Shown: piece after piece, positions 54,047-61,150 of the stretch
Layout of the letters: each line of letters begins with the position of its first letter
Numbering within the stretch: position 1 is the stretch's first letter
DNA from: Allomuricauda sp. M10
GTDB taxonomy: Bacteria; Bacteroidota; Bacteroidia; Flavobacteriales; Flavobacteriaceae
NCBI RefSeq assembly: GCF_020782875.1
Contig: NZ_JAJGBN010000009.1
Coordinates: forward strand, 1 to 64,000
Length of the DNA stretch: 64,000 nt
Reading direction: 5' to 3'
Made by a program: the position numbers and the translations under genes
Notes under the pieces: model-generated
Databases searched by the model: none
Told to the model about the DNA's origin: nothing
The model's input: only the letters and a program-made list of their open reading frames with translations

Positions 54047-54772
54047 ATGTATTATTATGTAATAGTTGCCTTACAGGGTTTTTGCGTGTATCACTGTTAT
54101 ACCCACAGAAACAATTATTATTGGATATTTGCAATCATATTTCTTCCTCTGGTAGGTTCGATTCTATATCTTTTAATGAATGTCTTTCAAAAAAGGGACA
54201 TTGAAAAGGTGCAGGAAAGCTTGGTCACCGCTATTAATCCTTCTAAAAAAATTAAAGATTTAGAAAAGAAATTTAAGTTTTCTGAGACCTTTGAAAATCA
54301 AGTATCCCTAGCGGATGCCTATTTGAATGAAGGAATGTATGAAGAGGCCATTAAAAATTATAGGGCATCTTTAAAGGATGTCTTCGTCAATGATTTTTAT
54401 GCGATTTCAAAGTTGGTAGAGGCCTATTATTATGCCGAGGATTATGATAATACTATCCAATATGTGGATAAAATAAAGGACAATCCCTCCTTTAGAAAGT
54501 CGAAAGCATCGTTTTTATATGGATTGGCTTTGGAGAAAACAGGTAATATGGCATCTGCGGAAGAATATTTAAGAGTCTTTGATGCACCGTATTCCAATTT
54601 TAATGAGCGCTTGGAGCTTTCTCGGTTCTTGGTTAGGCAGAATAAGATTGAAGAGGCCAAAGAAGTCCTTCAAGAAATGATTTCTGAGTCAGAGCATATG
54701 TCTAGGCAAAGTTTTAAGACGAATAGGGAAGCCATTGAGAAAGCCAAGGAAGAGTTTGCGTCACTTGCATAA
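54047..54772 (+). CDS. Membrane-anchored TPR protein
   Basis: 241 aa from the ATG at 54047 (a GTG is one codon earlier). Two N-terminal hydrophobic segments (YYYVIVALQGFCVYHCY and WIFAIIFLPLVGSILYLLM) resemble the short PLDc_N-type membrane anchor. A cytoplasmic tail then has tetratricopeptide-like helix pairs (QVSLADAYLNEGMYEEAIKN, AISKLVEAYYYAEDYDNTIQ, FLYGLALEKTGNMASAEEYL). It probably mediates protein contacts at the membrane; no enzyme domain. Base composition looks more AT-rich than the neighbours. The stop overlaps the ATG of the UDG-like gene (TAATG). Confidence 0.75.
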   Translation: MYYYVIVALQGFCVYHCYTHRNNYYWIFAIIFLPLVGSILYLLMNVFQKRDIEKVQESLVTAINPSKKIKDLEKKFKFSETFENQVSLADAYLNEGMYEEAIKNYRASLKDVFVNDFYAISKLVEAYYYAEDYDNTIQYVDKIKDNPSFRKSKASFLYGLALEKTGNMASAEEYLRVFDAPYSNFNERLELSRFLVRQNKIEEAKEVLQEMISESEHMSRQSFKTNREAIEKAKEEFASLA

Positions 54773-55479
54773 TGTTCTTACACCGCCATCCATACGAGCC
54801 ATTTCTATTTCCCGAAGCCACCAAACTTATCGTGGGTACCTTGCCACCGCCCCGTTTTACTACAGGGGAGTTGAAAAAAGAGGATGTGGATTTCTGCTAC
54901 GGGAGCTGCAATGGTATGCTATGGCCCATTTTGGACCGAATCTTTGATCTGGGGTTAAAATATGAGACTACGGCCGAGGCCATTTTTCAAAGAGAACAAT
55001 TTCTGTTGAAACACAAAATTGGTGTCTGTGATATTGTACAAAGCGCGGAACGTTCCAAGATTGATGCTTCCGATTTGGGAATGCAAAACGTTGAACTCCG
55101 TGATATGATTGGTTATTTAAGGCACTTTCCTAAAGTGGATACTCTTCTGTTCACCGGCGGCAATAGTAAGAATGGTCCGGAATATTTCTTTAGAAAACAA
55201 CTAAGGGAATACGACATAAAATTAGAAGTAGTGAATGATGAAGTACCACGAATCCATGAGTTTAAATTGCCTTTGTCTGTTAGTGAAATTGAAAAATTGA
55301 AACCGCTGTCGGTTCGAGCGCAGTCGAGAACTATTAAAACGGTTTCCCTGACCGCTCCTTCCGGTGCCGCCAACCGCGCAGTGGGAAGTCTTGAAGCTTA
55401 CAAAAAGCTAAAAGATAAAGACCCTAATTTCAATACTTTGGATTTTAGGGTGATGCAGTATCGCGAATTTTTCAAATAA
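54772..55479 (+). CDS. Uracil-DNA-glycosylase superfamily protein
   Basis: 235 aa. The early strand and loop LIVGTLPPPRFTTGELKKED, the GSCNGMLWPILDRIF helix and the later LLFTGGNSKNG fit the UDG-like superfamily. The C-terminal SLTAPSGAANRAVGSLEAYK carries the nucleic-acid-binding serine/proline-type loop. A base-excision or nucleobase-binding role is inferred; the substrate is unclear. Residues ~179-187 (LSVRAQSRT) are encoded by a stretch identical over 18 nt to half of a palindromic repeat also found inside trpF. The gene is translationally coupled to the TPR gene. Confidence 0.75.
   Translation: MFLHRHPYEPFLFPEATKLIVGTLPPPRFTTGELKKEDVDFCYGSCNGMLWPILDRIFDLGLKYETTAEAIFQREQFLLKHKIGVCDIVQSAERSKIDASDLGMQNVELRDMIGYLRHFPKVDTLLFTGGNSKNGPEYFFRKQLREYDIKLEVVNDEVPRIHEFKLPLSVSEIEKLKPLSVRAQSRTIKTVSLTAPSGAANRAVGSLEAYKKLKDKDPNFNTLDFRVMQYREFFK
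55307..55331 (+). repeat. Half-copy of the trp-region palindromic element inside the UDG-like gene
   Basis: 55313-55330 reads TTCGAGCGCAGTCGAGAA, identical to one arm of the element inside trpF (59751-59824), and the leading TGTC is also shared. A matching second arm is not clear downstream. The segment encodes LSVRAQSRT in frame. Confidence 0.65.
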
Positions 55480-58194: not shown

Positions 58195-59376
58195 CTATAA
58201 TTTAAAATAATCAATATAATTCTGTAAATCTTTATCTCCGCGACCGGAAAGGTTCACTACCACCACATCGTCCTCGTTAAATTTTCGGTCTTTAAAGATG
58301 GCCAATGCATGAGAAGACTCAATGGCTGGAATGATGCCTTCCAATTTACAGAGGTCCAGACCAGCTTTCATGGCCTCATCATCGGTAATGGAAATGAATT
58401 CCCCACGACCTGAGGTGTACAAATGTGCATGCAAGGGTCCTACGCCAGGGTAATCTAATCCAGCAGAAATGGAGTAGGGTTCCGTAATCTGGCCATCCGG
58501 GGTCTGCATCAACAAGGTCTTGCTCCCGTGAATAATGCCTACTTTACCCAAAGCAGAGGTTGCTGCACTTTCCCCGGAATGAATGCCTTTTCCTGCCGCT
58601 TCCACCGCAATGATCCCCACCTCGGGAGTGTCCAGAAAATGATAGAAAGCCCCTGCGGCATTGCTACCCCCGCCGACACAGGCCACCACAAAATCTGGAT
58701 TTTCACGGCCTTCTTTTTCAAACAATTGGGATTTGATTTCTTCAGAAATGACCGATTGAAATCGGGCCACCATGTCCGGATAAGGGTGCGGACCTACGAC
58801 CGAGCCGATAATGTAATGCGTATCCACAGGATTGTTGATCCAATCGCGGATGGCTTCGTTGGTGGCATCCTTAAGGGTTTTACTGCCAGAAGTGGCAGGT
58901 CGTACCTCCGCTCCCAACATTTTCATCCGGGCCACATTGGGCGCTTGGCGGGCAATGTCGATCTCGCCCATATACACCACACATTCAATACCCATCAGGG
59001 CACAAACCGTTGCCGTAGCCACACCATGCTGACCTGCGCCGGTTTCGGCAATGATGCGGTGTTTACCCAATCTTTTGGCCATCAAAATCTGACCGATGGT
59101 ATTGTTGACCTTGTGTGCACCGGTATGGCAAAGATCTTCGCGCTTCAGGTAAATCTTGGTGTTATACTTTTTGGATAGGCGTTCCGCATAATATAAAGGT
59201 GTGGGTCGGCCTACATAATCCTTCAGCAATTGATGGAACTCTTCCTGAAAAGAAGGTTCCGCCATGATCTGAAGGTAGTTCTGCCGAAGCTCCTCACAAT
59301 TGGGATACAACATTTCGGGGATGAAAGCTCCTCCAAATTCTCCGTAATAGCCTCGTTCATCAGCGTGATAACTCAT
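58195..59376 (-). CDS. trpB: Tryptophan synthase beta chain
   Basis: 393 aa PLP enzyme joining indole and serine. The PLP lysine is in [17 protein letters not shown], the substrate loop in [17 protein letters not shown], and the phosphate-binding glycines in [12 protein letters not shown]. The length is normal for the type 1 enzyme that pairs with TrpA. It starts 2 nt after the trpF stop. Confidence 0.96.
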
Positions 59377-59378
59377 AA

Positions 59379-60095
59379 TCAGTTGTCAGTTTTAAATTGT
59401 AAATCGTCAGAGAGTGCATTGATAAATGATTTCAATGACGTTATATCTTTTAGTCCTGGCTCGGTCTCGAATTTGCTGTTCACATCTATGGCGAAGCAAT
59501 ATCGTGAGGCCGGACTATTTAAAAATTCCTTTAGTTTATCTACGGATTCCAATCCAATTCCCCCACTTAAAAAGAAGGGTTTGGTGGATGGATAATGTTC
59601 CAAAACGGACCAATCGAAAGTATACCCATTTCCGCCCGGCAATTTTCCCTTGGTATCGAAAAGGAAATAATCGCAAACGGATTCATAATCTTTCAAGACC
59701 GAAAAATCAAAATCATCTTTAATGGAAAACACTTTGAGGATTTCCAAATTTGTCAGGTCGAGCGGAGTCGAGACCTCGTTTTCATCTTCAACTTTCTGGT
59801 TTCTCGACTGCGCTCGAAATGACAGAAAGTTGGATTTTAATTCGGAACAATATGCAACACTTTCCTTCCCATGGAGTTGCACTGCATCCAATCTGTACTG
59901 GCTCACTTTTTCTAAGACCACTTCTAAAGGAGCGTCCACAAATACACCCACTTTTTTAATGGATTTTGACAATTGGGGCATTGCTCCCTTAAAATACCGT
60001 GAGGAAGGTTCCCAGAAAATAAAACCCAGGTAATCGGGGTGCAGTTGTGCCACCTCGTTAGGGTTCTGATTCATGCCGCAGATTTTTAGTTTCAT
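59379..60095 (-). CDS. trpF: Phosphoribosylanthranilate isomerase with a repeat-derived internal insertion
   Basis: 238 aa from the ATG at 60095, about 28 residues longer than usual TrpF (~205-210). An upstream extension to 60134 (RNDKK) is part of a repeat, not the gene. The catalytic Cys is in [10 protein letters not shown] and the Asp in [29 protein letters not shown] and [12 protein letters not shown] are present. Residues ~91-115 ([25 protein letters not shown]) are encoded exactly by a 74-nt inverted repeat. They fall between helix alpha3 (YCSELKS) and strand beta4 (LEILKVFSI), on the non-catalytic side of the barrel. The frame is kept, so a working enzyme is plausible. Confidence 0.93.
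59751..59824. repeat. Complete TGTCA...TGACA inverted-repeat element inside trpF
   Basis: Arms are 59751-59775 and 59798-59824. They pair over most of their length with a central AGTCGAGA core, and the ends are TGTCA and TGACA. The ~22-nt spacer is unpaired. It translates on the minus strand without stops and adds 25 codons to trpF. Confidence 0.92.
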
Positions 60096-60103
60096 GGTTT
60101 TTT

Positions 60104-60161
60104 TGTCATTTCGAACAAATGTGAGAAATCTCAAAATAGATTTCGACTACGCTCAATCTCC
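60104..60161. repeat. Degenerate inverted-repeat element A upstream of trpF
   Basis: Starts TGTCATTTCGA (60104-60114). GAAATCT (60125-60131) pairs with AGATTTC (60138-60144). The right part, CGACTACGCTCAATCTCC, is the uninterrupted version of a segment broken by a GC-rich insertion in element B. Confidence 0.75.
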
Positions 60162-60206
60162 TATTAGGAGTAACATTTTTTAATTCAGTAATACTTTTTC
60201 TTTATT

Positions 60207-60316
60207 TGTCATTCCGAAATAAGCAGCGCGATTGAGGAATCTCTTTTTTAGATTTCTCACTTGGATTTCGACTACCTGCCGGCCGGCCGGCGCTCAATCT
60301 TCATTTCGAAATGACA
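60207..60316. repeat. Inverted-repeat element B abutting the trpC stop codon
   Basis: Left end TGTCATTCCGAAAT, right end ATTTCGAAATGACA ending at 60316; the trpC stop codon begins at 60317. It contains a 16-nt insertion (60276-60291) relative to element A. Element length without the insertion is about 94 nt. Confidence 0.85.
60276..60291. repeat. 16-nt GC-rich insertion within element B
   Basis: CTGCCGGCCGGCCGGC is placed between CGACTAC and GCTCAATC, which are contiguous in element A. The core GCCGGCCGGCCGGC is a perfect 14-nt palindrome, strikingly GC-rich in an AT-rich region. Confidence 0.85.
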
Positions 60317-61102
60317 TTATTTATTTAATTCATCAATAAATTCTTTGGCACTGGCACCAGGATCATCCGTTTTCATGAAATTCTCACCGATCAAAAATCC
60401 TTGGTACCCAAATTCCTTTAATTCCTGAATGGCCCCAATGGAACTGATGCCGCTTTCGGACACTTTTACAAAATCATCCGGTATCTGCGCAGCCAGTGAT
60501 TTGCTGGTATCCAAACTCACTTCGAAGGTTTTCAGGTTTCTGTTGTTCACTCCCAACATATCCAGACTGGGCATGATGGATTTCTGGAGTTCCTCTCTGT
60601 CGTGGACTTCCAACAGAACATCCAAGCCCAAGCTTTTGGCCAATTCCGAAAGCGTCTTGATTTCCTCACGGGACAAAATGGCCGCAATCAACAAAATGAC
60701 ATCGGCACCGTAGGCTTTGGCCTCTACAATTTGATATTCATCTATGATGAATTCTTTTCGCAATAGGGGAATGTTCACGGTGGCCCTAGCCAAAAGCAAG
60801 TCATCCAAAGAGCCACCGAAATACTTTCCATCCGTTAAAACGGACATGCCACAAACTCCTGCATCGGCATAGCCTTTGGCTACATCCTGTACGTTCAGAT
60901 TTTGGTTGATGACCGATTTGGATGGCGATCGTCTTTTGTGTTCGGCAATAATACCCGTACTGCTTTTGCGCAACACTGCCGCTAAAGAAACCGAAGTATG
61001 TTCCATCATCACCGAAGCTTCCAATTGGGGAAGGGTGATCAAGGTTTTTTTCAATTCGACCTCTTTGCGTTTGTCGGCCACTATTTTGTCTAGTATGTTC
61101 AT
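60317..61102 (-). CDS. trpC: Indole-3-glycerol phosphate synthase
   Basis: 261 aa TIM-barrel enzyme. The substrate-binding block is IIAEHKRRSPSKSVI, with VLTDGKYFGGSLDDL, LLRKEFIIDEYQI, MLGVNNRNLKTFEV and SESGISS (phosphate loop). The length is normal and the protein is not fused to TrpF as in E. coli. It is flanked by repeat elements on both sides: element B abuts its stop, and elements D lie between it and trpD. Confidence 0.95.
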   Translation of the reverse strand: MNILDKIVADKRKEVELKKTLITLPQLEASVMMEHTSVSLAAVLRKSSTGIIAEHKRRSPSKSVINQNLNVQDVAKGYADAGVCGMSVLTDGKYFGGSLDDLLLARATVNIPLLRKEFIIDEYQIVEAKAYGADVILLIAAILSREEIKTLSELAKSLGLDVLLEVHDREELQKSIMPSLDMLGVNNRNLKTFEVSLDTSKSLAAQIPDDFVKVSESGISSIGAIQELKEFGYQGFLIGENFMKTDDPGASAKEFIDELNK

Positions 61103-61119
61103 GTATTCTTTATCATAAT

Positions 61120-61150
61120 GAGTTGCTGAAACGAGTTCAGCAAGACGTCT
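61120..61150. repeat. Small hairpin element D1 between trpC and trpD
   Basis: TTGCTGAA (61123-61130) and TTCAGCAA (61136-61143) are perfectly complementary around a 5-nt loop. It resembles a common flavobacterial repeat motif. Confidence 0.7.

Follow-up and report, generated by a model that had tools for sequence, protein, structure and literature searches.

Palindromic repeats inserted in frame in trpF and other genes of Allomuricauda, with turnover of repeat families at the same site

We analyzed a 64,000-nucleotide (nt) stretch of the Allomuricauda sp. M10 genome (contig NZ_JAJGBN010000009.1, positions 1 to 64,000; hereafter the window), in which a palindromic repeat lies inside trpF, the gene of phosphoribosylanthranilate isomerase (PRAI). 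The genome (G000) comprises 3.93 Mb, and its closest named relatives are Flagellimonas, Allomuricauda or Muricauda. The operon has the order trpD-trpC-trpF-trpB-trpA, the neighbours being named from their translations without searches, and the trpF product matches the PRAI profile PF00697 with E=4e-32. A first-pass annotation, made from the letters alone, had described a 74-nt palindrome within the gene. This palindrome is real and its position exact, with TGTCA at 59751-59755 and TGACA at 59820-59824, and trpF indeed runs across it without a stop or frameshift. The AlphaFold2 model of TrpF (48 sequences; mean predicted local distance difference test score (pLDDT) 84, predicted template modelling score 0.82) is a PRAI barrel that matches the TrpF structures 1dl3, 1nsj, and 1v5x. 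It places the insert between helix alpha3 (residues 80-98) and strand beta4 (118-124), in the alpha-to-beta loop proposed earlier. Residues 100-114 of the insert have pLDDT below 50; the insert is one of three such stretches in the model and contains the lowest block (40). In TIM barrels, alpha-to-beta loops point away from the active site. The insert is a genuine dispersed repeat, lies in frame in such a loop, and is apparently tolerated, as the first-pass annotation had argued.

The 25-nt arms of the palindrome are identical at 20 of 25 positions by hand count. Of the five mismatches, four fall at self-pairing positions within an arm (GG/CC in one arm, TT/AA in the second), which identifies half of the palindrome as the actual repeat unit. 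The 74-nt element is an inverted pair of hairpin units of about 26 nt with a spacer (Table 1); we call this TGTC-tagged family A. Specifically, the unit consists of TGTCA, two variable bases, TCGA, the 6-nt loop GCGCAG, TCGAGA, and a final two bases that pair with the variable ones. The trpF loop DNA has a folding energy of -36.9 kcal/mol (z -5.2 against 100 dinucleotide shuffles). A default repeat finder does not report the 74-nt pair and returns only the flank-extended hairpin of the right unit (59789-59807/59814-59832), and an Rfam scan of 59000-60800 at gathering thresholds gives no family.

A search of the same genome for the arms yields 56 dispersed matches at up to two mismatches, and a reversed control pattern yields none; the absence of other copies, which the first-pass annotation had named as evidence against its proposal, is not what the genome holds. 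With a slightly wider pattern, the 46 stretches read around the matches contain 65 A units in 45 elements. The TGTC tag is present in 57 of the 65 units. The two variable stem positions are Watson-Crick paired in 55 and 59 units (shuffle means 22.6 and 18.3, maxima 36 and 28), with three and four common pair types, respectively; since these positions covary, the hairpin structure has persisted through changes in its sequence. Two or three units occur in 19 of the 45 elements, 17 with an inverted pair whose tags are outermost and two with direct units.

At least nine of the 45 A elements lie in frame inside Pfam-supported genes, as determined from stop-to-stop frames and Pfam. The hosts include argS, leuS (two direct units), metG, metH, purL, and trpF, together with genes for a methylmalonyl-CoA mutase subunit, a GSCFA protein, and a serine hydrolase whose Beta-lactamase-type domain scores far under all class C cut-offs shown. 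Three further elements are likely in genes, namely in the N-terminal parts of mfd and of a second mutase subunit and in the open reading frame (ORF) 54772-55479 of the window, which has a below-cut-off match to DNA-deoxyinosine glycosylase. The frame in which the unit is read differs between host genes (RAQSR, SSAVE, STALD). The trpF insert is thus not a single odd coding copy, as first thought. Nor are such repeats confined to reports from between genes, since intragenic palindromic repeats are described in published accounts (PMC3733652, PMC3767692). The genomes of this group contain scattered hairpin units belonging to families A, B, C, E, and others, most of which, whatever the family, carry GTCA/TGAC tags at their outer ends. 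Family B (CGTCA.GCTGAACTTGTTTCAGC) has 35 arm matches in this genome at up to three mismatches (control 0), of which 33 of the 35 listed start with CGTC or CGTG-like variants of it, most with CGTCA.

Next, we compared trpF across 71 genomes of the genus; 69 have a trpF match, one locus was read per genome, and family labels were set by expression and by eye. Recognisable repeat units occupy the alpha3-beta4 loop in 59 of the 69 loci: A in 21, B in 22, half A in 11, C in two, and a B-A chimera, a B+A tandem, and an E-like unit in one each; two inserts are unassigned and eight loci are empty. Contrary to what had been anticipated, the insertion is therefore not absent from relatives, and relatives sharing the residues carry the same kind of DNA repeat instead of unrelated DNA. 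The loop of G000 has 36 codons against 12 in five of the eight empty loci (10-14 in all eight), which corrects the added length from the earlier figure of about 28 residues to about 24 codons. Overall, the loop varies from 10 to 47 residues; near-constant lengths are found for the N-terminal part of TrpF (83 or 84 residues) and for matched TrpB and TrpC, two contig-end cuts excepted. The loop has 36 codons in all 21 A alleles but two, where a nested insert brings it to 43, and 28 codons are scored for 15 of the 22 B loops. B lies one way in ten loci and in exact reverse in five (L018, L026, L037, L083, L094), the other seven being subtypes or mixed. Outside the genus set, units were recognised by eye in the trpF loops of an uncultured Flavobacteriaceae metagenome-assembled genome (MAG; A, L156), Maribacter (L173), Pricia (L182), a Winogradskyella MAG (L193), and another Flavobacteriaceae MAG (L194); the inserts of L173, L182, and L194 fold no better than shuffles. 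L169, from a MAG labelled Allomuricauda outside the 71 genomes, has a C-like insert. The 32 non-genus loci in the tree include 21 unassigned and 5 scored empty.

Several trpF loci are irregular in themselves. The B-A hybrid insert (L016/L078, G055) lies near a contig end of a 79%-complete MAG with trpF matches on two contigs, and this chimera may be an assembly join. A. taeanensis (G068; assembly with 6% contamination) has two trpF loci, L133 and L134, of equal match score and loop on different contigs. At L059/L099 (G054:C159) the trpF match lies inside a 658-residue open frame without a stop, which may reflect a trpF-trpB fusion or a frameshift where trpF ends.

Sister species often carry different families at the same trpF site. 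Tree neighbours with unlike inserts are L010 (A)/L026 (B), L013 (A)/L029 (B), L011 (A)/L024 (B), L027 (A)/L091 (B), and L033 (A)/L093 (C). A, half A included, against B requires 13 changes on the trpB+trpC tree and 14 on the loop-free trpF-core tree, and A has to change 18 times on the tree built from three genes (101 loci), with starred branches forcing at least 11 of these changes; these are quick trees with many weak forks. B and half A are more clustered on the tree (0/500 shuffles as low). We also compared 60-nt windows beside the loop in twelve locus pairs, among which the right flank of L009/L018 is out of register and unusable. In the A/B sister pairs L010/L026, L013/L029, and L011/L024, both loop-side windows are.92-.98 identical, like the rest, and most of the flanking trpF DNA follows the species tree. 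Because relatives with near-identical flanks differ at one site, simple divergence of one insertion is ruled out as a general account.

Similar contrasts are present in other host genes, for which we took the 30 best-matching of the 71 genomes per gene, counts that lean towards close relatives; the regex labels are rough, 12 of 30 argS and 6 of 30 metG loci being scored '?' and then read by eye. In metG, A, B, C, or mixed units occupy a single site in 29 of 30 loci, the remaining locus (L285) being degenerate; the near tree neighbours L260/L265 and L267/L268 carry unlike units. An A unit is recognisable by eye in all 30 argS loci, in either orientation and in some of them with substitutions, and 28 have equal loop length; the argS tree is poorly resolved. 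At the metH site we found nine A units (one nested), two A dimers in another frame, one other, and 18 empty loci; among close relatives of G000, L335 is occupied and L336/L337 are empty, a net change of 18 nt. The purL linker holds A in 12 loci, E in eight (seven plain, one reversed), and E with a second palindrome nested in its loop in five, the rest being one unrelated palindrome, one degenerate, and three empty. The trpC-trpF spacer, compared in 12 loci, gives the clearest hint of contents changing while ends stay. Some sister species hold other families there; the spacers of L011 and L024 have the common start CGTCACTTCGA followed by different elements, and L025 retains only both ends as an 18-nt end-to-end remnant. 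L013/L029 and L033/L093 share the same spacer element despite their unlike trpF inserts.

In-frame palindromic insertion with same-site family turnover is well supported by these data. The reading we consider probable is that mobile hairpins resembling repetitive extragenic palindromic (REP) elements are tolerated in surface loops, where one resident gives way to another, is flipped, receives a nested element, or is cut short at its site. In coding DNA, survival would be limited to frame-preserving copies in permissive loops, and such loops (trpF alpha3-beta4 and the metG, argS, metH, and purL sites) would be struck or reused repeatedly. The resident hairpin would then undergo family switch, inversion, nesting, halving, or loss, mainly by replication template switching or micro-homology at the hairpin ends and not by exchange of flanking homologous DNA, the encoded peptide being tolerated and not selected. 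A stronger form, which we hold to be doubtful, is that Flavobacteriaceae actively exchange REP-like hairpins as cassettes while retaining the site, with in-place replacement or flipping within a few nt and without flank exchange. It would run by a hairpin-directed replication or nuclease/ligase process independent of the REP-associated tyrosine transposase (RAYT), and the permissive loops would be long-lived docking sites generating new protein segments.

Several observations weigh against in-place turnover. A is close to random on the tree (45/500 shuffles as low), the 30 argS loci include no empty one, so insertion as such is not demonstrated there, and no direct transposition or template-switch event was observed in the compared sequences. 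Independent insertion in a few permissive loops could yield the same pattern without in-place exchange. This alternative, in which very mobile families insert randomly, purifying selection acts, and old copies are deleted with no exchange between elements, is a serious contender that we rate somewhat short of an even chance. It fits the clean empty/occupied contrasts in metH, the eight empty trpF loci, the low-confidence loop that the trpF insert forms in the model, and the turnover of intergenic palindromes beside trpF; against it, one loop would have to be struck many times, given the changes needed for A and B alone, and the recurring 36-codon A and mostly 28-codon B junctions are unexpected unless the target is very specific. 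Those same junctions would suit an exchange of alleles between species, in which A and B each arose once in trpF and were passed on by short homologous recombination tracts. The native codons (KxxF) are kept in A alleles and missing from B alleles, so that a B-to-A switch needs donor DNA. Flank identity is lower in two pairs, L033/L093 (A/C;.70 right of the loop vs.95 downstream) and L012/L025 (.67 left of the loop vs.86-.88 around), where the exchange may include the flank, and by eye the resemblance of L082 to L011 is confined to the left side. Among pairs at moderate distance, A spacers are slightly more alike than rotated controls (.41 against.33;.30 in the most distant third), and a few are strikingly alike (L010/L033, 12/15 nt), a hint that A alleles may in part share descent. 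Our confidence in turnover in place is slightly lowered by the spacer result and by the two pairs whose flanks are altered.

When local similarity is regressed on overall similarity in 54 A and B loci, with a term for shared class, a clear excess appears just left of the insert, in three codons (z 5.7 and 6.3, 0/500); elsewhere the signal is weak or absent (z 1.2, 1.2, and 1.5 further left, 0.1 and 1.6 right, maximum 1.7). This lowers the likelihood of short exchanges with close relatives and leaves room for them; recombination with close relatives is possible, the flank test being low-powered for it. Given that the same-class signal is not clear beyond three codons, that the trpF-core tree is as discordant as the trpB+trpC tree, and that B occurs in opposite orientations in one loop, allele exchange seems rather unlikely to us. 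Long-tract trpF transfer was rejected, as neither the flank windows nor the regression clearly support it beyond three codons, with L033/L093 and L012/L025 as exceptions. A tandem B+A ancestor with differential loss was rejected as a general account: the tandem L098 has B then A and lacks the native KxxF codons that A-only alleles keep, and its right junction differs.

Selection on the insert itself can be judged by comparing, in 190 pairs, 20 A alleles whose loops have 36 codons, among them the out-of-genus L156. Their arms are.871 identical at third and.882 at first and second codon positions, against.521 and.843 in the 330 nt of trpF after the insert; likewise, the unit in half-A loci (n=11) gives.879 and.874 against.596 and.908 in the core. 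Because the arms are equally conserved at all three positions, the peptide is not what is conserved; possible causes are that the copies are young, that they are homogenised, or that the hairpin is under selection. The last would fit an RNA-level function, a trp mRNA hairpin selected for stability, processing, or pausing for which any palindrome suffices, and A and B inserts do fold better than shuffles (mean z -3.8, 17/21 below -2, and mean z -3.0, 18/22 below -2). Such a function is nevertheless improbable, as the insert is missing from eight of the 69 loci and reduced in 11 to a half unit, whose folding is no better than that of shuffles (mean z -0.65), a result that also tells against turnover in place, and as the phenomenon recurs in unrelated genes. 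That none of the 101 trpF loops read has a stop codon would agree with recruitment of the peptide for protein function; since unrelated peptides from different families, frames, and orientations stand at one place, and the codon positions give no sign of it, we regard recruitment as scarcely credible.

The A elements resemble several known systems. CGTC-tagged REP elements are described as mostly intergenic, with some inside genes including those of tRNA synthetases, as lacking a known dedicated transposase, and as having Bacteroidetes among their host phyla; two Xanthomonas carry different REPs at about the same recB site (Di Nocera et al. 2013, PMC3733652). Both they and the A elements have an unpaired CGTC/TGTC-type tag, a short hairpin, and mainly inverted dimers. 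In contrast to their 4-5 nt loop and 8-9 bp stem, which starts with an A, T pair, the A unit has a loop of 6 nt and a bulged stem of 6-7 bp, made of two variable pairs and nearly invariant TCGA/TCGA with a 2-nt bulge; a first A-T pair occurs in only 38 of 65 units, equal to shuffles, and in place of the unpaired, mostly CCA tail the A units continue, by eye, with varied bases. We therefore keep the A elements apart from the published CGTC families. The main text of PMC3733652 has no match for trpF, and its relevant parts describe no genus-wide swapping. The A elements are also kept apart from the GTAG-tagged REPs borne by RAYTs, because that tag (theirs is TGTC) and the transposase are absent: no Y1 transposase (PF01797) match occurs in G000 at E<=0.001, and RAYT was rejected as mobiliser in this genome. 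PF01797 is present in 13 of the 71 genus genomes.

Analogous by description are the Rickettsia palindromic elements (RPE), which the A elements resemble in being palindromic, dispersed, and in frame inside genes. RPE-4/6/7 lie in frame at solvent-exposed sites of housekeeping genes, with an ATGAC motif, and orthologs carry different RPE groups in the same genes; the published account leaves undecided whether these are hot spots or one diverged insertion (PMC3767692). The present case differs from that account in phylum and in sister species (three pairs with 60-nt windows 92-98% identical) holding unrelated families. Sequences like Wolbachia palindromic elements are found in frame in addA, addB, and priA, mostly without stops, and the relevant part of that account has none of the same-site family switching seen here (PMC4224334). 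In yeast, inverted repeats undergo template switching that makes their arms uniform and flips the spacer, in coding DNA too (PMC8604942); by analogy it could explain kept palindromes and flips, although the abstract of that account mentions no mobile repeat family or family replacement. Nematomorpha mitochondria have inverted repeats inside translated genes, whose arms encode conserved protein regions and are not dispersed inserts as here (PMC6649704). Among open-licence PMC papers, taken without supplements, we found no recognised account of such elements in Flavobacteriaceae. Intragenic palindromes and same-site family differences in Rickettsia are already published; the phylum, the scale, and the sister-species swaps are new. 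The same-site contrasts (unrelated families in trpF, metG, and purL, occupied and empty loci in metH, opposite orientations in argS) bear on the question left by the Rickettsia work, repeat strikes on hot spots or one old diverged insertion (PMC3767692). The mechanism becomes testable in a free-living genus with many cultured species. New peptide segments are continually supplied, in frame, to tRNA synthetases and biosynthetic enzymes, and hairpin-bearing loops mislead alignments.

Table 1. Positions of the repeat units and associated features in the window.
Feature	Position	Strand	Details and basis
trpF, phosphoribosylanthranilate isomerase	59379..60095	-	238 aa from ATG; PRAI PF00697; AlphaFold2 model
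A-family inverted dimer, in frame in trpF	59751..59824	-	about 25 residues encoded; sequence, genome pattern search
A unit 1 (5' in trpF)	59798..59824	-	TGTCA tag + hairpin TT-TCGA-GCGCAG-TCGAGA-AA; unit list, covariation
A unit 2, opposite orientation	59751..59777	+	TGTCA tag + hairpin GG-TCGA-GCGGAG-TCGAGA-CC; unit list, covariation
Second A unit in the window, in frame in ORF 54772-55479	55309..55329	+	encodes LSVRAQSR; pattern search
trpC-trpF spacer	60096..60316	.	further GTCA..TGAC palindromes, one with a nested GC-rich palindrome; sequence
B-family unit between trpD and trpC (L248)	61126..61147	-	B arm match

The B unit between trpD and trpC is the only one of the 30 B loci read (35 matches in all) that falls within a stop-to-stop frame of 150 aa or more; it sits 14 codons from the 5' end of that frame, upstream of the trpC start. 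Additionally, some palindromes are nested in others. A small GC-rich palindrome (CCTGCCGG..GGCAGG type) is found in the hairpin loops of A, B, and C units, with the frame kept in genes, at L032, L034, and L036 (trpF), L264, L266, L271, and L274 (metG), L342 (metH), and near position 60270 of the window. In purL, L371, L373, L382, L384, and L392 have a palindrome nested in frame in the loop of another (e.g. ASTSFDSAQEP..LSH), and L388 carries the unrelated CCCCTCACCCTTAGGGGGAGG-type palindrome, in frame, in the same linker.
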